A stretch of 64,000 bases of DNA from an uncultured Latescibacterota bacterium (GTDB taxonomy: Bacteria; Latescibacterota; UBA2968): the NCBI GenBank assembly GCA_958295785.1, contig OY282377.1, positions 1,874,394 through 1,938,393 on the forward strand. Direction: 5' to 3'. The position numbers and the translations under genes were made by a program. The notes below the pieces were generated by a model. The model was not told the DNA's origin. It searched no databases and worked only from the letters and a program-made list of their open reading frames with translations. This document shows positions 40,971 to 44,665 of the stretch, piece by piece. How positions within the stretch are numbered: position 1 is the stretch's first letter; each line of letters begins with the position of its first letter.

Positions 40971-41390
40971 ATGAAAAAACCCATTGTTGTTTACGATGGC
41001 GAATGTCGGTTTTGCATCTGGAGTGTTCGCCGCATGCAAAAAAAAGACAAACGCGATCAGTTTGATTATTTGCCCCGGCAGACGCAGGGGATTGAAGGCC
41101 ATTTTCCCAAGCTGGCCGAGTCGGATTTCAACACGGGCATGCGCTTGGTGATGAGCCAAGAGAATATTTATGTGGGTGCCGATGCCGTGTATCAGATTTA
41201 TCGCAGGCTGCCCCCGTTTCATCTGCTCGCCTGGTTGTATCGCGTGCCGGGGTTGCATCTCGTGTTCCGCGCTGGATACGCGCTGATTGCGCGCTATCGC
41301 CACCTTTCTGGCCGCGTGGCGTGCGATACAGGGACGTGCGACTTGTCTTATGGCGACCGCGGAATAAAAAACGAAAACCAAACGGCTTGA
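40971..41390 (+). CDS. DCC-family (DUF393) thiol-disulfide oxidoreductase-like protein
   Basis: 139 residues from the ATG at 40971. The family hallmark DxxCxxC is present at the N terminus (VVYDGECRFCIWSVRRMQ), and a later segment reads GMRLVMSQENIYVGADAVYQ. DUF393 proteins have a thioredoxin-like fold, but their reaction is unproved. It is the last gene of the aminotransferase-Nudix-DCC operon. No clear terminator is seen before the coiled-coil paralogues that start 94 bases later. Confidence 0.85.
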   Translation: MKKPIVVYDGECRFCIWSVRRMQKKDKRDQFDYLPRQTQGIEGHFPKLAESDFNTGMRLVMSQENIYVGADAVYQIYRRLPPFHLLAWLYRVPGLHLVFRAGYALIARYRHLSGRVACDTGTCDLSYGDRGIKNENQTA

Positions 41391-41484
41391 CTTGGGGTAT
41401 TGGATTGGGTATGTTTTTTTTATACATCGGTAGCGGTGACGGGAAGCGATTGGGGCACTCATAACCACTCTAAAGGCAGGTGAG

Positions 41485-41943
41485 ATGATGGCGACAACGG
41501 TTGAGGAATTACAAGCCCAACAAAACGCATTTCAGACGCGACAAGCGGATTTTGAGAAGGGGCAAGGCGAACTCAAGAAAGGACAAGAAGCCAATGAGAA
41601 AGCAATTGCCGAAGTCAAGTCAGACGTAAACGCGATCAAAGCAGAACAAATTGAACTGCGAGAGCGTCAAGCGGTTGTCGAAGAACAAAATCAGCAGATT
41701 TTAGCGATGCTGTCCGATATTAAACGCGAGATCGCCGAATCGAGAGCCGAGACAAAACGCGAGATCGCTGAGACAAAACGCGAGATCGCCGAATCGAGAG
41801 CCGAGACAAAACGCGAGATTGCCGAATTGAGAGCCGAAGTAAAACGCGAGATCGCCGCGTTGAAAAGCGATATGAAGTGGTTTTTCGGGGCAGTTGTCGT
41901 GCTCGCTGGCCTCGTGCTTGCCGCGCTCAAACTTTTTCAATAA
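41485..41943 (+). CDS. Coiled-coil tail-anchored protein, paralogue 1 (five KREIA units)
   Basis: 152 residues. MATTVEELQAQQNAFQTRQA starts a long amphipathic helix; QQILAMLSDI leads into five KREIA units (11-, 7-, 11- and 11-residue spacings), then LKSDMKWFFGAVVVLAGLVL, a single C-terminal TM helix. The layout resembles DUF1640-type proteins and XhlA/BhlA holin-like proteins, but I cannot assign a function. The hendecad spacing predicts a right-handed or mixed coiled coil. The ribosome site is AGGCAGGTGAG, the same in all four copies. It may be an oligomeric membrane-anchored rod. Confidence 0.8.
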   Translation: MMATTVEELQAQQNAFQTRQADFEKGQGELKKGQEANEKAIAEVKSDVNAIKAEQIELRERQAVVEEQNQQILAMLSDIKREIAESRAETKREIAETKREIAESRAETKREIAELRAEVKREIAALKSDMKWFFGAVVVLAGLVLAALKLFQ

Positions 41944-41972
41944 TGTGAATCCATTCTCTAAAGGCAGGTGAG

Positions 41973-42410
41973 ATGATGGCGACAGCAGTTGAGGAATTAC
42001 AAGCCCAACAAAACGCATTTCAGACGCGACAAGCGGATTTTGAGAAGGGGCAAGGCGAACTCAAGAAAGGACAAGAAGCCAATGAGAAAGCAATTGCCGA
42101 AGTCAAGTCAGACGTAAACGCGATCAAAGCAGAACAAATTGAATTGCGAGAGCGTCAAGCGGTTGTCGAAGAGCAAAATCAGCAGATTTTAGCGATGCTG
42201 TCCGATATTAAACGCGAGATCGCCGAATCGAGAGCCGAGACAAAACGCGAGATTGCCGAATCGAGAGCCGAAGTAAAACGCGAGATCGCCGAATCGAGAG
42301 CCGAGACAAAACGCGAGATCGCCGCGTTGAAAAGCGATATGAAGTGGTTTTTCGGGGCAGTTGTCGTGCTCGCTGGCCTCGTGCTTGCCGCGCTCAAACT
42401 TTTTCAATAA
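41973..42410 (+). CDS. Coiled-coil tail-anchored protein, paralogue 2 (four KREIA units)
   Basis: 145 residues, nearly identical to paralogue 1 in the first ~80 residues and in the C-terminal TM part. It has four KREIA units, with three 11-residue spacings. The 29 bases before its start repeat those before copies 3 and 4 (AATCCA, then CTAAAGGCAGGTGAG). No terminator separates it from its neighbours. Confidence 0.8.
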   Translation: MMATAVEELQAQQNAFQTRQADFEKGQGELKKGQEANEKAIAEVKSDVNAIKAEQIELRERQAVVEEQNQQILAMLSDIKREIAESRAETKREIAESRAEVKREIAESRAETKREIAALKSDMKWFFGAVVVLAGLVLAALKLFQ

Positions 42411-42437
42411 TGTGAATCCACTCTAAAGGCAGGTGAG

Positions 42438-42830
42438 ATGATGGCGACAGCAGTTGAGGAATTGCAAGCCCAACAAAACGCATTTCAGACGCGACAAGCG
42501 GATTTTGAGAAGGGGCAAGGCGAACTCAAGAAAGGACAAGAAGCCAATGAGAAAGCAATTGCCGAAGTCAAGTCAGACGTAAACGCGATCAAAGCAGAAC
42601 AAATTGAACTGCGAGAGCGTCAAGCGGTTGTCGAAGAGCAAAATCAGCAGATTTTAGCGATTCTGTCCGATATTAAACGCGAGATCGCTGAGACAAAACG
42701 CGAGATCGCCGAATTGAGAGCCGAGACAAAACGCGAGATCGCCGCGTTGAAAAGCGATATGAAGTGGTTTTTCGGAGCTGTTGTCGTGCTCGCTGGCCTC
42801 GTGCTTGCCGCGCTCAAACTCTTTCAATAA
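42438..42830 (+). CDS. Coiled-coil tail-anchored protein, paralogue 3 (three KREIA units)
   Basis: 130 residues. The same N-terminal helix and TM tail as its neighbours, with three KREIA units (7- then 11-residue spacing) and LAILSDI in place of LAMLSDI. The length change comes only from whole units of the repeat, not from random indels. Confidence 0.8.
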   Translation: MMATAVEELQAQQNAFQTRQADFEKGQGELKKGQEANEKAIAEVKSDVNAIKAEQIELRERQAVVEEQNQQILAILSDIKREIAETKREIAELRAETKREIAALKSDMKWFFGAVVVLAGLVLAALKLFQ

Positions 42831-42857
42831 TGCGAATCCACTCTAAAGGCAGGTGAG

Positions 42858-43229
42858 ATGATGGCGACGCCGGTTGAGGAATTGCAAGCCCAACAAAACG
42901 CATTTCAGACGCGGCAAGCGGATTTTGAGAAGGGGCAAGGCGCGCTCAAGAAAGGACAAGAGACGAATGAAAAGACGATTGCCGAAGTCAAGTCAGACGT
43001 AAACGCGATCAAAGCAGAACAAATTGAACTGCGAAAGCGTCAAGCGGTTGTCGAAGCGCAAAATCAGCAGATTTTAGCGATTCTGTCCGATATTAAACGC
43101 GAGATCGCCGAATCGAGAGCCGAGACAAAACGCGAGATCGCCGCGTTGAAAAGCGATATGAAGTGGTTTTTCGGGGCAGTTGTCGTGCTCGCTGGCCTCG
43201 TGCTTGCCGCGCTCAAACTCTTTCAGTAA
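42858..43229 (+). CDS. Coiled-coil tail-anchored protein, paralogue 4 (two KREIA units)
   Basis: 123 residues, the shortest copy, with two KREIA units. It is also the most diverged in the N-terminal helix (KKGQETNEKTIAEV, ELRKRQAVVEAQ). Its stop is 20 bases before the start of the first Trp-rich leader peptide, so transcription from the array probably runs into the trpS control region unless the attenuator stops it. Confidence 0.8.
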   Translation: MMATPVEELQAQQNAFQTRQADFEKGQGALKKGQETNEKTIAEVKSDVNAIKAEQIELRKRQAVVEAQNQQILAILSDIKREIAESRAETKREIAALKSDMKWFFGAVVVLAGLVLAALKLFQ

Positions 43230-43249: not shown

Positions 43250-43348
43250 ATGACAATGTATGGTCACATCTCGATTGACGCGATACCCGTTCCCCGTGTG
43301 TCTGGCGCGATGCGCGATTGGTGGCATGCCCCTGTGTGGATTTGCTGA
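43250..43348 (+). CDS. Trp-rich leader peptide 1 of trpS
   Basis: A 32-residue reading frame with GAGGA seven bases upstream. It starts MTMYGHISIDAIPVP and ends MRDWWHAPVWIC, so three of the last nine residues are Trp (codons at 43319, 43322 and 43337). The stop codon lies inside the segment that can form the antiterminator. A short, well-initiated peptide rich in the amino acid handled by the next enzyme is the hallmark of ribosome-mediated attenuation. Confidence 0.75.
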   Translation: MTMYGHISIDAIPVPRVSGAMRDWWHAPVWIC

Positions 43349-43416
43349 CGGGTTTTGTCGTTTGTTTTTGAATCTTCTGAGTGTACCGCCGTCAGCTTAT
43401 TGATGGCGGTTTTTTT
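43344..43416 (+). promoter_or_regulatory. Transcription attenuator 1 (terminator plus antiterminator) upstream of trpS
   Basis: Terminator: ACCGCCGTCA at 43385-43394 pairs with TGATGGCGGT at 43401-43410 (ten pairs with one G-U), then T7. Antiterminator: GCTGACGG at 43344-43351, which includes the leader stop, pairs perfectly with CCGTCAGC at 43389-43396 and so would use up the 5' arm of the terminator. A ribosome stalled on the Trp codons leaves GCTGACGG free and transcription goes on. One that reaches the stop covers it and the terminator forms. This is inference from sequence; no promoter was placed. Confidence 0.75.
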
Positions 43417-43463
43417 GTGCGCGATTGGACGAATGTATGGATTCGTTGACCGAGGATCGGACG

Positions 43464-43631
43464 ATGTTTTTGAATGCCCTGACAGGACTGATGAACGCGA
43501 ATAGACGCTGGTGGTGGTCGAGCGCGAGGAGAGATGTCTGTCCACCACCGGATAGTTGGCGATCTGTGTTTGCACCGCGCGCTACCGGAAGGTGGCGCGC
43601 TTTTTTTTGGACTGACAACTTGGGGCTGTGA
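43464..43631 (+). CDS. Trp-rich leader peptide 2 of trpS (less certain)
   Basis: The ATG at 43464 with GAGGA upstream reads MFLNALTGLMNANRRWWWSS, with three Trp codons in a row at 43509-43517. An ATG at 43491 is another start. The frame does not stop soon after the Trp codons but runs to 43631, past the second terminator, which is odd for a leader peptide. Either translation usually drops out earlier, or the real control differs from the classical model. Three adjacent UGG codons in front of trpS are unlikely by chance. Confidence 0.5.
   Translation: MFLNALTGLMNANRRWWWSSARRDVCPPPDSWRSVFAPRATGRWRAFFWTDNLGL
43510..43608 (+). promoter_or_regulatory. Transcription attenuator 2 upstream of trpS
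   Basis: The Trp codons themselves (GGTGGTGG at 43510-43517) pair with CCACCACC at 43542-43549. A strong terminator follows: GCGCGCTACC at 43577-43586, a GGAA loop, GGTGGCGCGC at 43591-43600, then T8. CCACC of the second segment can also pair with GGTGG in the 3' arm of the terminator, giving the usual 1:2 / 2:3 / 3:4 choice. A ribosome stalled on the Trp codons would block the 1:2 stem and favour read-through. Confidence 0.65.
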
Positions 43632-43666
43632 CTGGGAGGCTTAACAACTGACAACAGGAGTTTGAA

Positions 43667-44665
43667 ATGAACCGCACAATTGTTTTGACAGGTGATCGCC
43701 CAACAGGCAAAATGCACTTGGGGCATTATGTTGGGTCGTTGAAGAATCGGTTTGAAATGCAGGACGAGTTTCAGTGCTTTTTTATGATTGCCGATTATCA
43801 GGCCCTGACGACGCATCAGAACCGCGCAGGGGATTTGGCAGCGCATGTCCAAGAAATGGTGCTGGATTATCTGGCAGCGGGTTTTGATCCCCAAAAAAGC
43901 GCGTGTTTTTTGCAATCGCAGGTGCCGCAACTGGCAGAATTGACCGTGATTTTTTCCAATCTGGTGACCTTGCCGCGTTTGCTCCGCAATCCGACCGTCA
44001 AGGAAGAGATGGAAAAGATGGGATTGGAAAAGCGCACGACTTATGGTTTTGTGGGATATCCCGTGTCTCAAGCGGCGGATATTTTGCTGTTCCGCCCGCA
44101 ATACGTGCCGGTGGGGCCGGATCAAAGGCCCCATATTGAACTGGCGCGAGAAGTGGCCGCGCGATTTAATCGCACTTATGGCGACGTCTTTCCCATTCCC
44201 CATGGCGTTTACGGCGCGTTGCTAAAGGGCACGGATGGGCAGAGCAAGATGGGAAAAAGTTATGGCAATGCCATTGACTTGTCGGATAGCGAAGCGTCTG
44301 TGCGCGCAAAGGTGATGAATATGGTGACAGATCCGAGGCGCGTGCGGGCAACTGATCCGGGCAATCCCGATGTGTGTTCGGCATTTCACTATCGCACGGT
44401 GTTTGATGAAGCGCGTGCCGATCAGGTGGCGAGGACATGTCGCAAGGGCGCGGTCGGTTGCACGACGTGCAAGGCCGCGTTGGCAGATGTGCTCAACGAT
44501 TTTATGACGCCATTTCGGAATCGCCGCAAGGCATTTGAAAAACAGCCCGATCTGGTGCGCGATATTTTGAACCTGGGCAGCGCGAAAGCGCGCATTGAAG
44601 GCCAACGCACGCTGGAAAAAGTTAAGGAGGCAATGGGGATGGGATACAAATTTTTGATGGGATGA
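43667..44665 (+). CDS. trpS: Tryptophanyl-tRNA synthetase
   Basis: 332 residues from the ATG at 43667 (AGGAG six bases upstream). Class-I synthetase signature: the HIGH-type motif is TGDRPTGKMHLGHYVGSL and the KMSKS-type loop is GQSKMGKSYGNAIDLSD. In between, FVGYPVSQAADILLFRPQY and VPVGPDQRPHIELAREVA are typical of TrpRS rather than TyrRS. It joins tryptophan to tRNA-Trp in the cytoplasm. Expression is probably set by the two attenuators upstream, which respond to charged tRNA-Trp, that is, to its own product. Confidence 0.95.
   Translation: MNRTIVLTGDRPTGKMHLGHYVGSLKNRFEMQDEFQCFFMIADYQALTTHQNRAGDLAAHVQEMVLDYLAAGFDPQKSACFLQSQVPQLAELTVIFSNLVTLPRLLRNPTVKEEMEKMGLEKRTTYGFVGYPVSQAADILLFRPQYVPVGPDQRPHIELAREVAARFNRTYGDVFPIPHGVYGALLKGTDGQSKMGKSYGNAIDLSDSEASVRAKVMNMVTDPRRVRATDPGNPDVCSAFHYRTVFDEARADQVARTCRKGAVGCTTCKAALADVLNDFMTPFRNRRKAFEKQPDLVRDILNLGSAKARIEGQRTLEKVKEAMGMGYKFLMG

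Follow-up and report, generated by a model that had tools for sequence, protein, structure and literature searches.

Aminoacyl-tRNA synthetase genes can be placed under the control of tRNA charge by T-box leaders, which sometimes occur in tandem, and the E. coli trpL type represents classical attenuation by a Trp leader peptide. In the leader peptide TnaC the residues Trp12 and Pro24 matter, and Asp16 is among the others that do. For trpS itself, Streptomyces has a single Trp leader, TrpL2 (MMTRTCTQLWRAA followed by the stop), with one Trp codon (PMC8079986), and an auxiliary TrpRS of Streptomyces gives resistance to indolmycin (PMC6804068). Tandem leader-peptide attenuators have been described for Salmonella mgtCBR, where they answer ATP and proline, and have been called a singular example (PMC3641672). 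In E. coli, polyproline encoded before an intrinsic terminator uncouples ribosome and polymerase and raises termination, 26-fold without EF-P and 1.3-fold with EF-P in one background (PMC5021804). We found nothing relevant in the literature on attenuation in Latescibacterota.

We analysed a stretch of 64,000 nucleotides (the window) from the closed 5.66 Mb genome (G000) of an uncultured member of the Latescibacterota, in which a trpS gene is preceded, in this order, by a first leader and its terminator (leader 1 and T1; element 1) and a second leader and its terminator (leader 2 and T2; element 2). We consider it probable that these are two ribosome-mediated Trp attenuators in series before an auxiliary trpS, although no expression data exist and attenuation in vivo is an inference. 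The features are as follows.

41387..41415, + strand: promoter candidate TTGACT-N17-TATGTT, equivalent by its flank CAAACGGCTTGACTTGGGG to the promoter found before leader 1 in congeners
41485..43229, + strand: four tandem coiled-coil genes, confined to the window genome, that separate the promoter candidate from leader 1
43250..43348, + strand: putative leader peptide 1, MTMYGHISIDAIPVPRVSGAMRDWWHAPVWIC, 32 residues, with stop TGA at 43346-43348
43319-43324 and 43337-43339, + strand: Trp codons of leader 1
43344..43351, + strand: putative antiterminator strand GCTGACGG, over the leader 1 stop, pairing with CCGTCAGC at 43389-43396
43385..43416, + strand: predicted intrinsic terminator T1, ten pairs (43385-43394 with 43401-43410) and then a T run
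43464..43550, + strand: constrained coding stretch of leader 2, from the ATG to the Pro run (MFLNALTGLMNANRRWWWSSARRDVCPPP), its frame open in 18 of 18 genomes
43508..43517, + strand: element 2 strand 1, CTGGTGGTGG, holding three Trp codons (43509-43517) and pairing with strand 2
43542..43551, + strand: element 2 strand 2, CCACCACCGG, encoding an in-frame Pro-Pro-Pro; its partner is strand 1 or, for part of it, the loop and 3' arm of T2
43577..43608, + strand: predicted intrinsic terminator T2, stem at 43577-43600 with ten pairs and a GGAA loop, then T8 at 43601-43608
43667..44665, + strand: auxiliary trpS, 332 aa, with HLGHY (HIGH-type) and KMGKS (KMSKS-type) present

The original prediction had described a 32-residue Trp leader with a ten-pair hairpin and T run, followed by three adjacent Trp codons with a pairing partner, a terminator with T8 and then trpS, and each of these lies where it was placed. 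The 8-base strand over the leader 1 stop is indeed perfectly complementary to its target, but not wholly within the 5' arm of the hairpin as had been claimed: six of the bases pair with the arm and two with the loop.

Folding of single sequences was uninformative (z −0.26 for element 1 and −1.99 for element 2). The case that the elements exceed chance comes from covariance models run against whole genomes, and the folding z-score alone would not have made it. Each model hit a genome strongly only once, ahead of the same trpS paralogue, with E values down to 1e-29 for element 1 and 1e-39 for element 2. The element 2 model, built from 13 sequences, has one strong match in each of 15 genomes of the family, and it also finds element 2 in three members of the order that were outside the model (G035, E 6e-12; G037, 4e-11; G033, 3e-8), where the element has the canonical trpS on one side and a second trpS-like gene on the other. 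Across the 21 order genomes checked, element 2 accompanies the second trpS in all 18 that have one (in G009 the gene was counted from its element 2, at which the contig ends), and no match to element 2 was found in G034, G036 and G038, the three without a second trpS. Element 1 is present in every one of the 11 genus genomes and also in G011 and G012, which represent two other genera; five genomes (G013, G014, G033, G035 and G037) have element 2 without it.

We infer that element 2, occurring in each of the two families of the order in which a second trpS exists, looks ancestral and tied to that gene, and that element 1 with its promoter, confined to genera g1-g3, looks like a later addition. 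The idea of two serial attenuators is thus supported in an amended form, with the second element seemingly the older. It would have been refuted had relatives discarded the Trp codons or the alternative pairings; they keep the Trp codons of both leaders and both terminators, and they keep the alternative pairing of element 1 with changed sequence. Comparison among genomes establishes, as properties of the sequence, both elements, their frames and terminators, the pairing in element 1, the serial order and the linkage to the auxiliary trpS.

The target gene qualifies as a TrpRS (TIGR00233 above cut-off), and its closest solved structure is Deinococcus TrpRS II. The window genome encodes another TrpRS at 5282006-5282986, 48% identical, which closely follows another gene; no Trp leader was found in the stretch read upstream of it. 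Because this other type is present in every order genome and the window type in 18 of the 21, the window trpS is the auxiliary copy. The claim that the leaders stand before trpS therefore stays, with the correction that the gene is a second, auxiliary trpS and not the housekeeping one.

Some relatives of this gene have lost catalytic motifs. In G003, G004 and G005 an in-frame loss with identical break points (G004 L009, G005 L010, G003 L011) includes KMSKS, and the changes among these copies are nearly all synonymous (dN/dS about 0.05 for the N-terminal part; 17 versus 5 and 17 versus 3 in two pairs). In the neighbouring family f2, HIGH of the second trpS is altered or lost in G035 and G033, and KMSKS is lost in G033, G035 and G037 (L063, L061, L062); FLQSQVPQL and RIEGQRTLE (RVQGQHTLE in G033) are kept. 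The second trpS of G014 (L045, L060) has decayed, with three in-frame TAG codons in the matched part, and its element 2 is still recognisable. Given these losses, a non-catalytic, TrpRS-derived role appears likely in some lineages, its function being inferred; we found nothing relevant in the literature on TrpRS pseudoenzymes.

Directly before leader 1, relatives have a sigma70-like TTGACA/T-N17-TATTTT (or TATTCT, TACTTT). The window candidate has 9 of 12 matches, and such sites in the region are no commoner than in shuffled sequences, so its support is the flank and the position shared with relatives. One amendment to the original prediction concerns this interval: in the window species alone, leader 1 is separated from the ancestral promoter candidate by coiled-coil genes, a small gene repeated four times in tandem (about 123-152 aa, with a C-terminal hydrophobic stretch) that had no match in the other 10 genomes of the genus. 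A promoter mapped downstream of both elements would have told against attenuation of trpS; we found no promoter-like site between T2 and trpS in the window.

Leader 1, with adjacent Trp codons and a stop, occurs in 13 genomes of three genera and has a Shine-Dalgarno-like sequence before its start. Its ending before the stop varies among genomes (WWHAPVWIC, WWWRAIVWVC, WWWCGAL, WWWHNVMLRGQS, WWSVPSRPGRL and others). When the span from the Trp codons to T1 was searched for duplexes and compared with shuffles, the best duplex fell at the same place in all three genera, 17-18 nt downstream of the Trp pair, where it overlaps the leader stop or lies next to it. The duplexes are formed by three unrelated sequences (GCUGACGG with CCGUC(A/G)GC, GGCCGAC with GUCGGCC, and CAAUCG with CGGUUG), with shuffle p values of 0.004 in the window, 0.005 in G012, 0.096 in G011 and 0.01-0.06 in congeners. 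Divergence within the genus was too small to show any column-by-column covariation in element 1, so the pairing is supported by its being kept across genera.

With T1 and a mutually exclusive pairing, placed to be under a ribosome at the stop and free during a Trp stall, element 1 belongs by its layout with the classical attenuators in all three genera. We are quite confident that it is a classical ribosome-mediated Trp attenuator, its translation and its action in vivo being inferred from sequence without expression data. When Trp-tRNA is plentiful, a ribosome at the leader 1 stop would cover GCTGACGG and T1 would form; a ribosome stalled on WW, about 18 nt upstream, would leave GCTGACGG free to pair with the 5' portion of T1, and transcription would continue. 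In G011 (L056) a Tautomerase_2-family gene lies between the two elements; because of this position, element 1 there would control the tautomerase gene together with trpS, and element 2 only trpS.

Element 2 is of a different kind. The leader 2 frame is open from the start to the Pro run in all 18 genomes, with 0 stops in 537 codons versus 42 and 22 in the other frames. The distance from start to Pro run takes five values (87, 90, 93, 99 and 105 nt), all multiples of 3, and the first Pro follows the first Trp by 33 or 30 nt, in frame in every genome. Starts are mostly ATG (G014 would use GTG) and are preceded by Shine-Dalgarno-like sequences in several genera. Pro-Pro-Pro is encoded in 17 of the 18 leaders, usually followed by Asp, and the run survives third-base change, as G035 and G037 use CCG CCA CCG; G033 has Pro-Thr-Pro. 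Past the Pro run the constraint on frame seems weaker, because length changes before T2 shift the frame in five genomes (by 4 nt in G001, G004, G007 and G008; also in G014).

That the second leader lacks an early stop was correctly noted at the outset: in the window the first stop is at 43629, the frame reaching 43631, and no in-frame stop precedes the end of the T2 stem in 17 of 18 genomes, that of G033 lying inside the stem. Since a classical attenuator has a stop before its terminator, element 2 is a variant and not a classical member. T2 itself is well kept, with 98.5% of cells paired over 13 genomes and two pairs changed on both sides. Strand 1 consists of the Trp codons (UGG runs) and strand 2 of their reverse complement (CCA runs; CCACCACC at 43542-43549 in the window), read in frame as Pro; as UGG and CCA are reverse complements, an in-frame Trp run that pairs downstream must meet a Pro run. 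The Pro run lies 7-8 codons on, close in position to the leader 1 stop of G011 and G012 (9 codons on).

What releases element 2 can only be inferred, and each of two candidate antiterminators falls short in part of the genomes. With the Trp codons masked and GGUGG just made, strand 2 paired with the T2 loop and first 3' arm is the minimum-energy fold in most of the genomes listed; with T2 complete, T2 is the most stable in most of them, the exceptions being G013 and G014. This 2:4 antiterminator (CCACC-CCGG paired to the loop and 3' arm of T2) is kept in sequence and, apart from those two genomes, favoured only before T2 is completed; within the genus there was too little divergence to show any covariation for it. 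In the other candidate, a segment downstream of the Trp codons takes up the 5' arm of T2. It appears in G035 and G037 when the Trp codons are masked, and in five congeners (L025, L026, L027, L028, L030) the third Trp of leader 2 is replaced by Ser, through which UCGGUAGGCGC pairs strongly to the 5' arm and loop of T2 (shuffle p 0.003-0.023). This segment directly follows WW and hence would lie under a stalled ribosome, and the pairing is absent in others, G011 among them. Other best duplexes of element 2 are near shuffle level in most genomes, and none is clearly above shuffles in all lineages. Because neither folds nor duplexes settle the mode of release, the claim for a second attenuator rests on conservation and codons, with the antiterminator unresolved.

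In the model that we propose, both elements would sense charged tRNA-Trp and act in series. Without a ribosome on element 2, the UGG-run strand would pair with the CCA-run strand and T2 would form. A ribosome stalled on the Trp codons would free the CCA-run strand and the segment that follows, which would interfere with the folding of T2. A ribosome that has passed the Trp codons would slow at Pro-Pro-Pro and cover the CCA-run strand, so that T2 forms; the Pro run would in this way stand in the place of the classical stop codon. Element 2 would then be an attenuator without a stop, a single hairpin coding for sensor and brake alike, with a polyproline pause replacing the stop codon. We offer this reading tentatively, as possible rather than probable: the pause is inferred, the Pro-Thr-Pro of G033 is a point against it, and the size of any effect of the Pro run stays open because the window genome has EF-P. 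The same reserve covers the combined picture, in which a classical attenuator upstream adds same-signal serial control of a synthetase paralogue that is turning non-catalytic in some lineages.

A possible objection is that only element 1 attenuates, and that element 2 is a hairpin and terminator fixing a low level of read-through, with leader 2 sensing nothing. The unresolved antiterminator and the missing stop before T2 are what such an arrangement would look like, and the need for RNA pairing might by itself explain why strands 1 and 2 are kept. Pairing does not, however, account for a frame that stays open in every genome while the leader changes length in whole codons only, nor for the Shine-Dalgarno-like sequences before its start; moreover, in the five genomes without element 1, element 2 would be the sole control. 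We regard this objection as unlikely to hold. Leader 2 might instead be read as a TnaC-like sensor of free Trp, with arrest at the Pro run covering strand 2 so that T2 forms. The logic fits (high Trp, arrest, termination), and in WW-PPP leaders a Trp stands 12 residues before a Pro, a spacing like that of TnaC; two or three Trp and three Pro codons give such a spacing easily, however, the residues between Trp and Pro vary between genera where an arrest peptide of this kind should conserve them, and there is no conserved counterpart of other TnaC residues such as Asp16. We give this idea little credence.

Least credible to us, and very improbable, is that T1 and T2 are ordinary terminators of upstream genes, with trpS transcribed from a promoter of its own. 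The coiled-coil genes do lie directly upstream in the window, and T1 could end their transcript; yet both leaders are conserved throughout the genus and outside it as well, and the relatives' promoter precedes leader 1, with none found between T2 and trpS. We return to the reading of two serial, ribosome-mediated Trp attenuators.

Control by leader peptide is at home in the window genome, because its trpE (found by a TIGR00564 search; a query with a TrpEG-type protein found nothing in the family) also has a leader rich in the relevant codons. This leader (L077; also L076 and L075) has Trp, Phe and Tyr codons (MNTFANHFWYFWRQFDGRYYYRRPSKCVVCP, then the stop) and is followed by a hairpin and T run, at about 1210-1450 in the trpE orientation; it may attenuate in response to the aromatic amino acids as a whole. 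A weak match to the element 2 model in G040 (L064, reverse strand) is a Trp leader of conventional form, closed by a stop (MDNSTYNRFWWRAWYDQSNGRGASTR) and located ahead of an anthranilate synthase gene; a trpE leader of that kind may be the source of element 2.

How, then, does the locus compare with what has been described? No T-box match from Rfam reached the gathering score in the region, and relaxing the limit to E 5 gave none either; with nothing relevant in Rfam, we excluded a T-box or other Rfam RNA. The sensor also differs, being here a translated Trp run. Streptomyces shares a Trp leader before trpS, and some actinomycetes also have a second TrpRS, but its leader is single and no tandem arrangement has been described. 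The only tandem leader-peptide attenuators that we found in the literature, mostly open-access, are those of Salmonella mgtCBR. These resemble the present locus in having two translated leaders in series within one 5' region, one of them with Pro codons; they differ in responding to two different signals and in lacking typical intrinsic terminators, whereas both leaders here have Trp codons and intrinsic terminators. Because both sensors are Trp codons, the benefit of serial attenuation by one signal (tightness, dynamic range, a sharper threshold) becomes testable; multiplicative control by the pair, like the steep or two-step induction of the original prediction, is so far inferred. In some lineages the TrpRS paralogue that would be controlled has lost catalytic motifs and still has its leader, with strong purifying selection in at least one.

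Element 2 poses the question of whether pausing at Pro codons can substitute for a stop codon. The polyproline study in E. coli (PMC5021804) used a constructed PPPPPP-pyrL reporter and not a natural leader in which Pro replaces the stop. Against the E. coli trpL type (PMC3641672), element 1 is alike in its short leader with adjacent Trp codons, its stop, its alternative strand and its intrinsic terminator. The locus departs from that type in having two such elements in series, before a synthetase paralogue, and in the design of element 2, whose terminator is not preceded by a stop and whose strand 2 is a Pro run in frame; such a leader, in which in-frame Pro codons form the complement of the Trp run itself, would be a new and compact arrangement.
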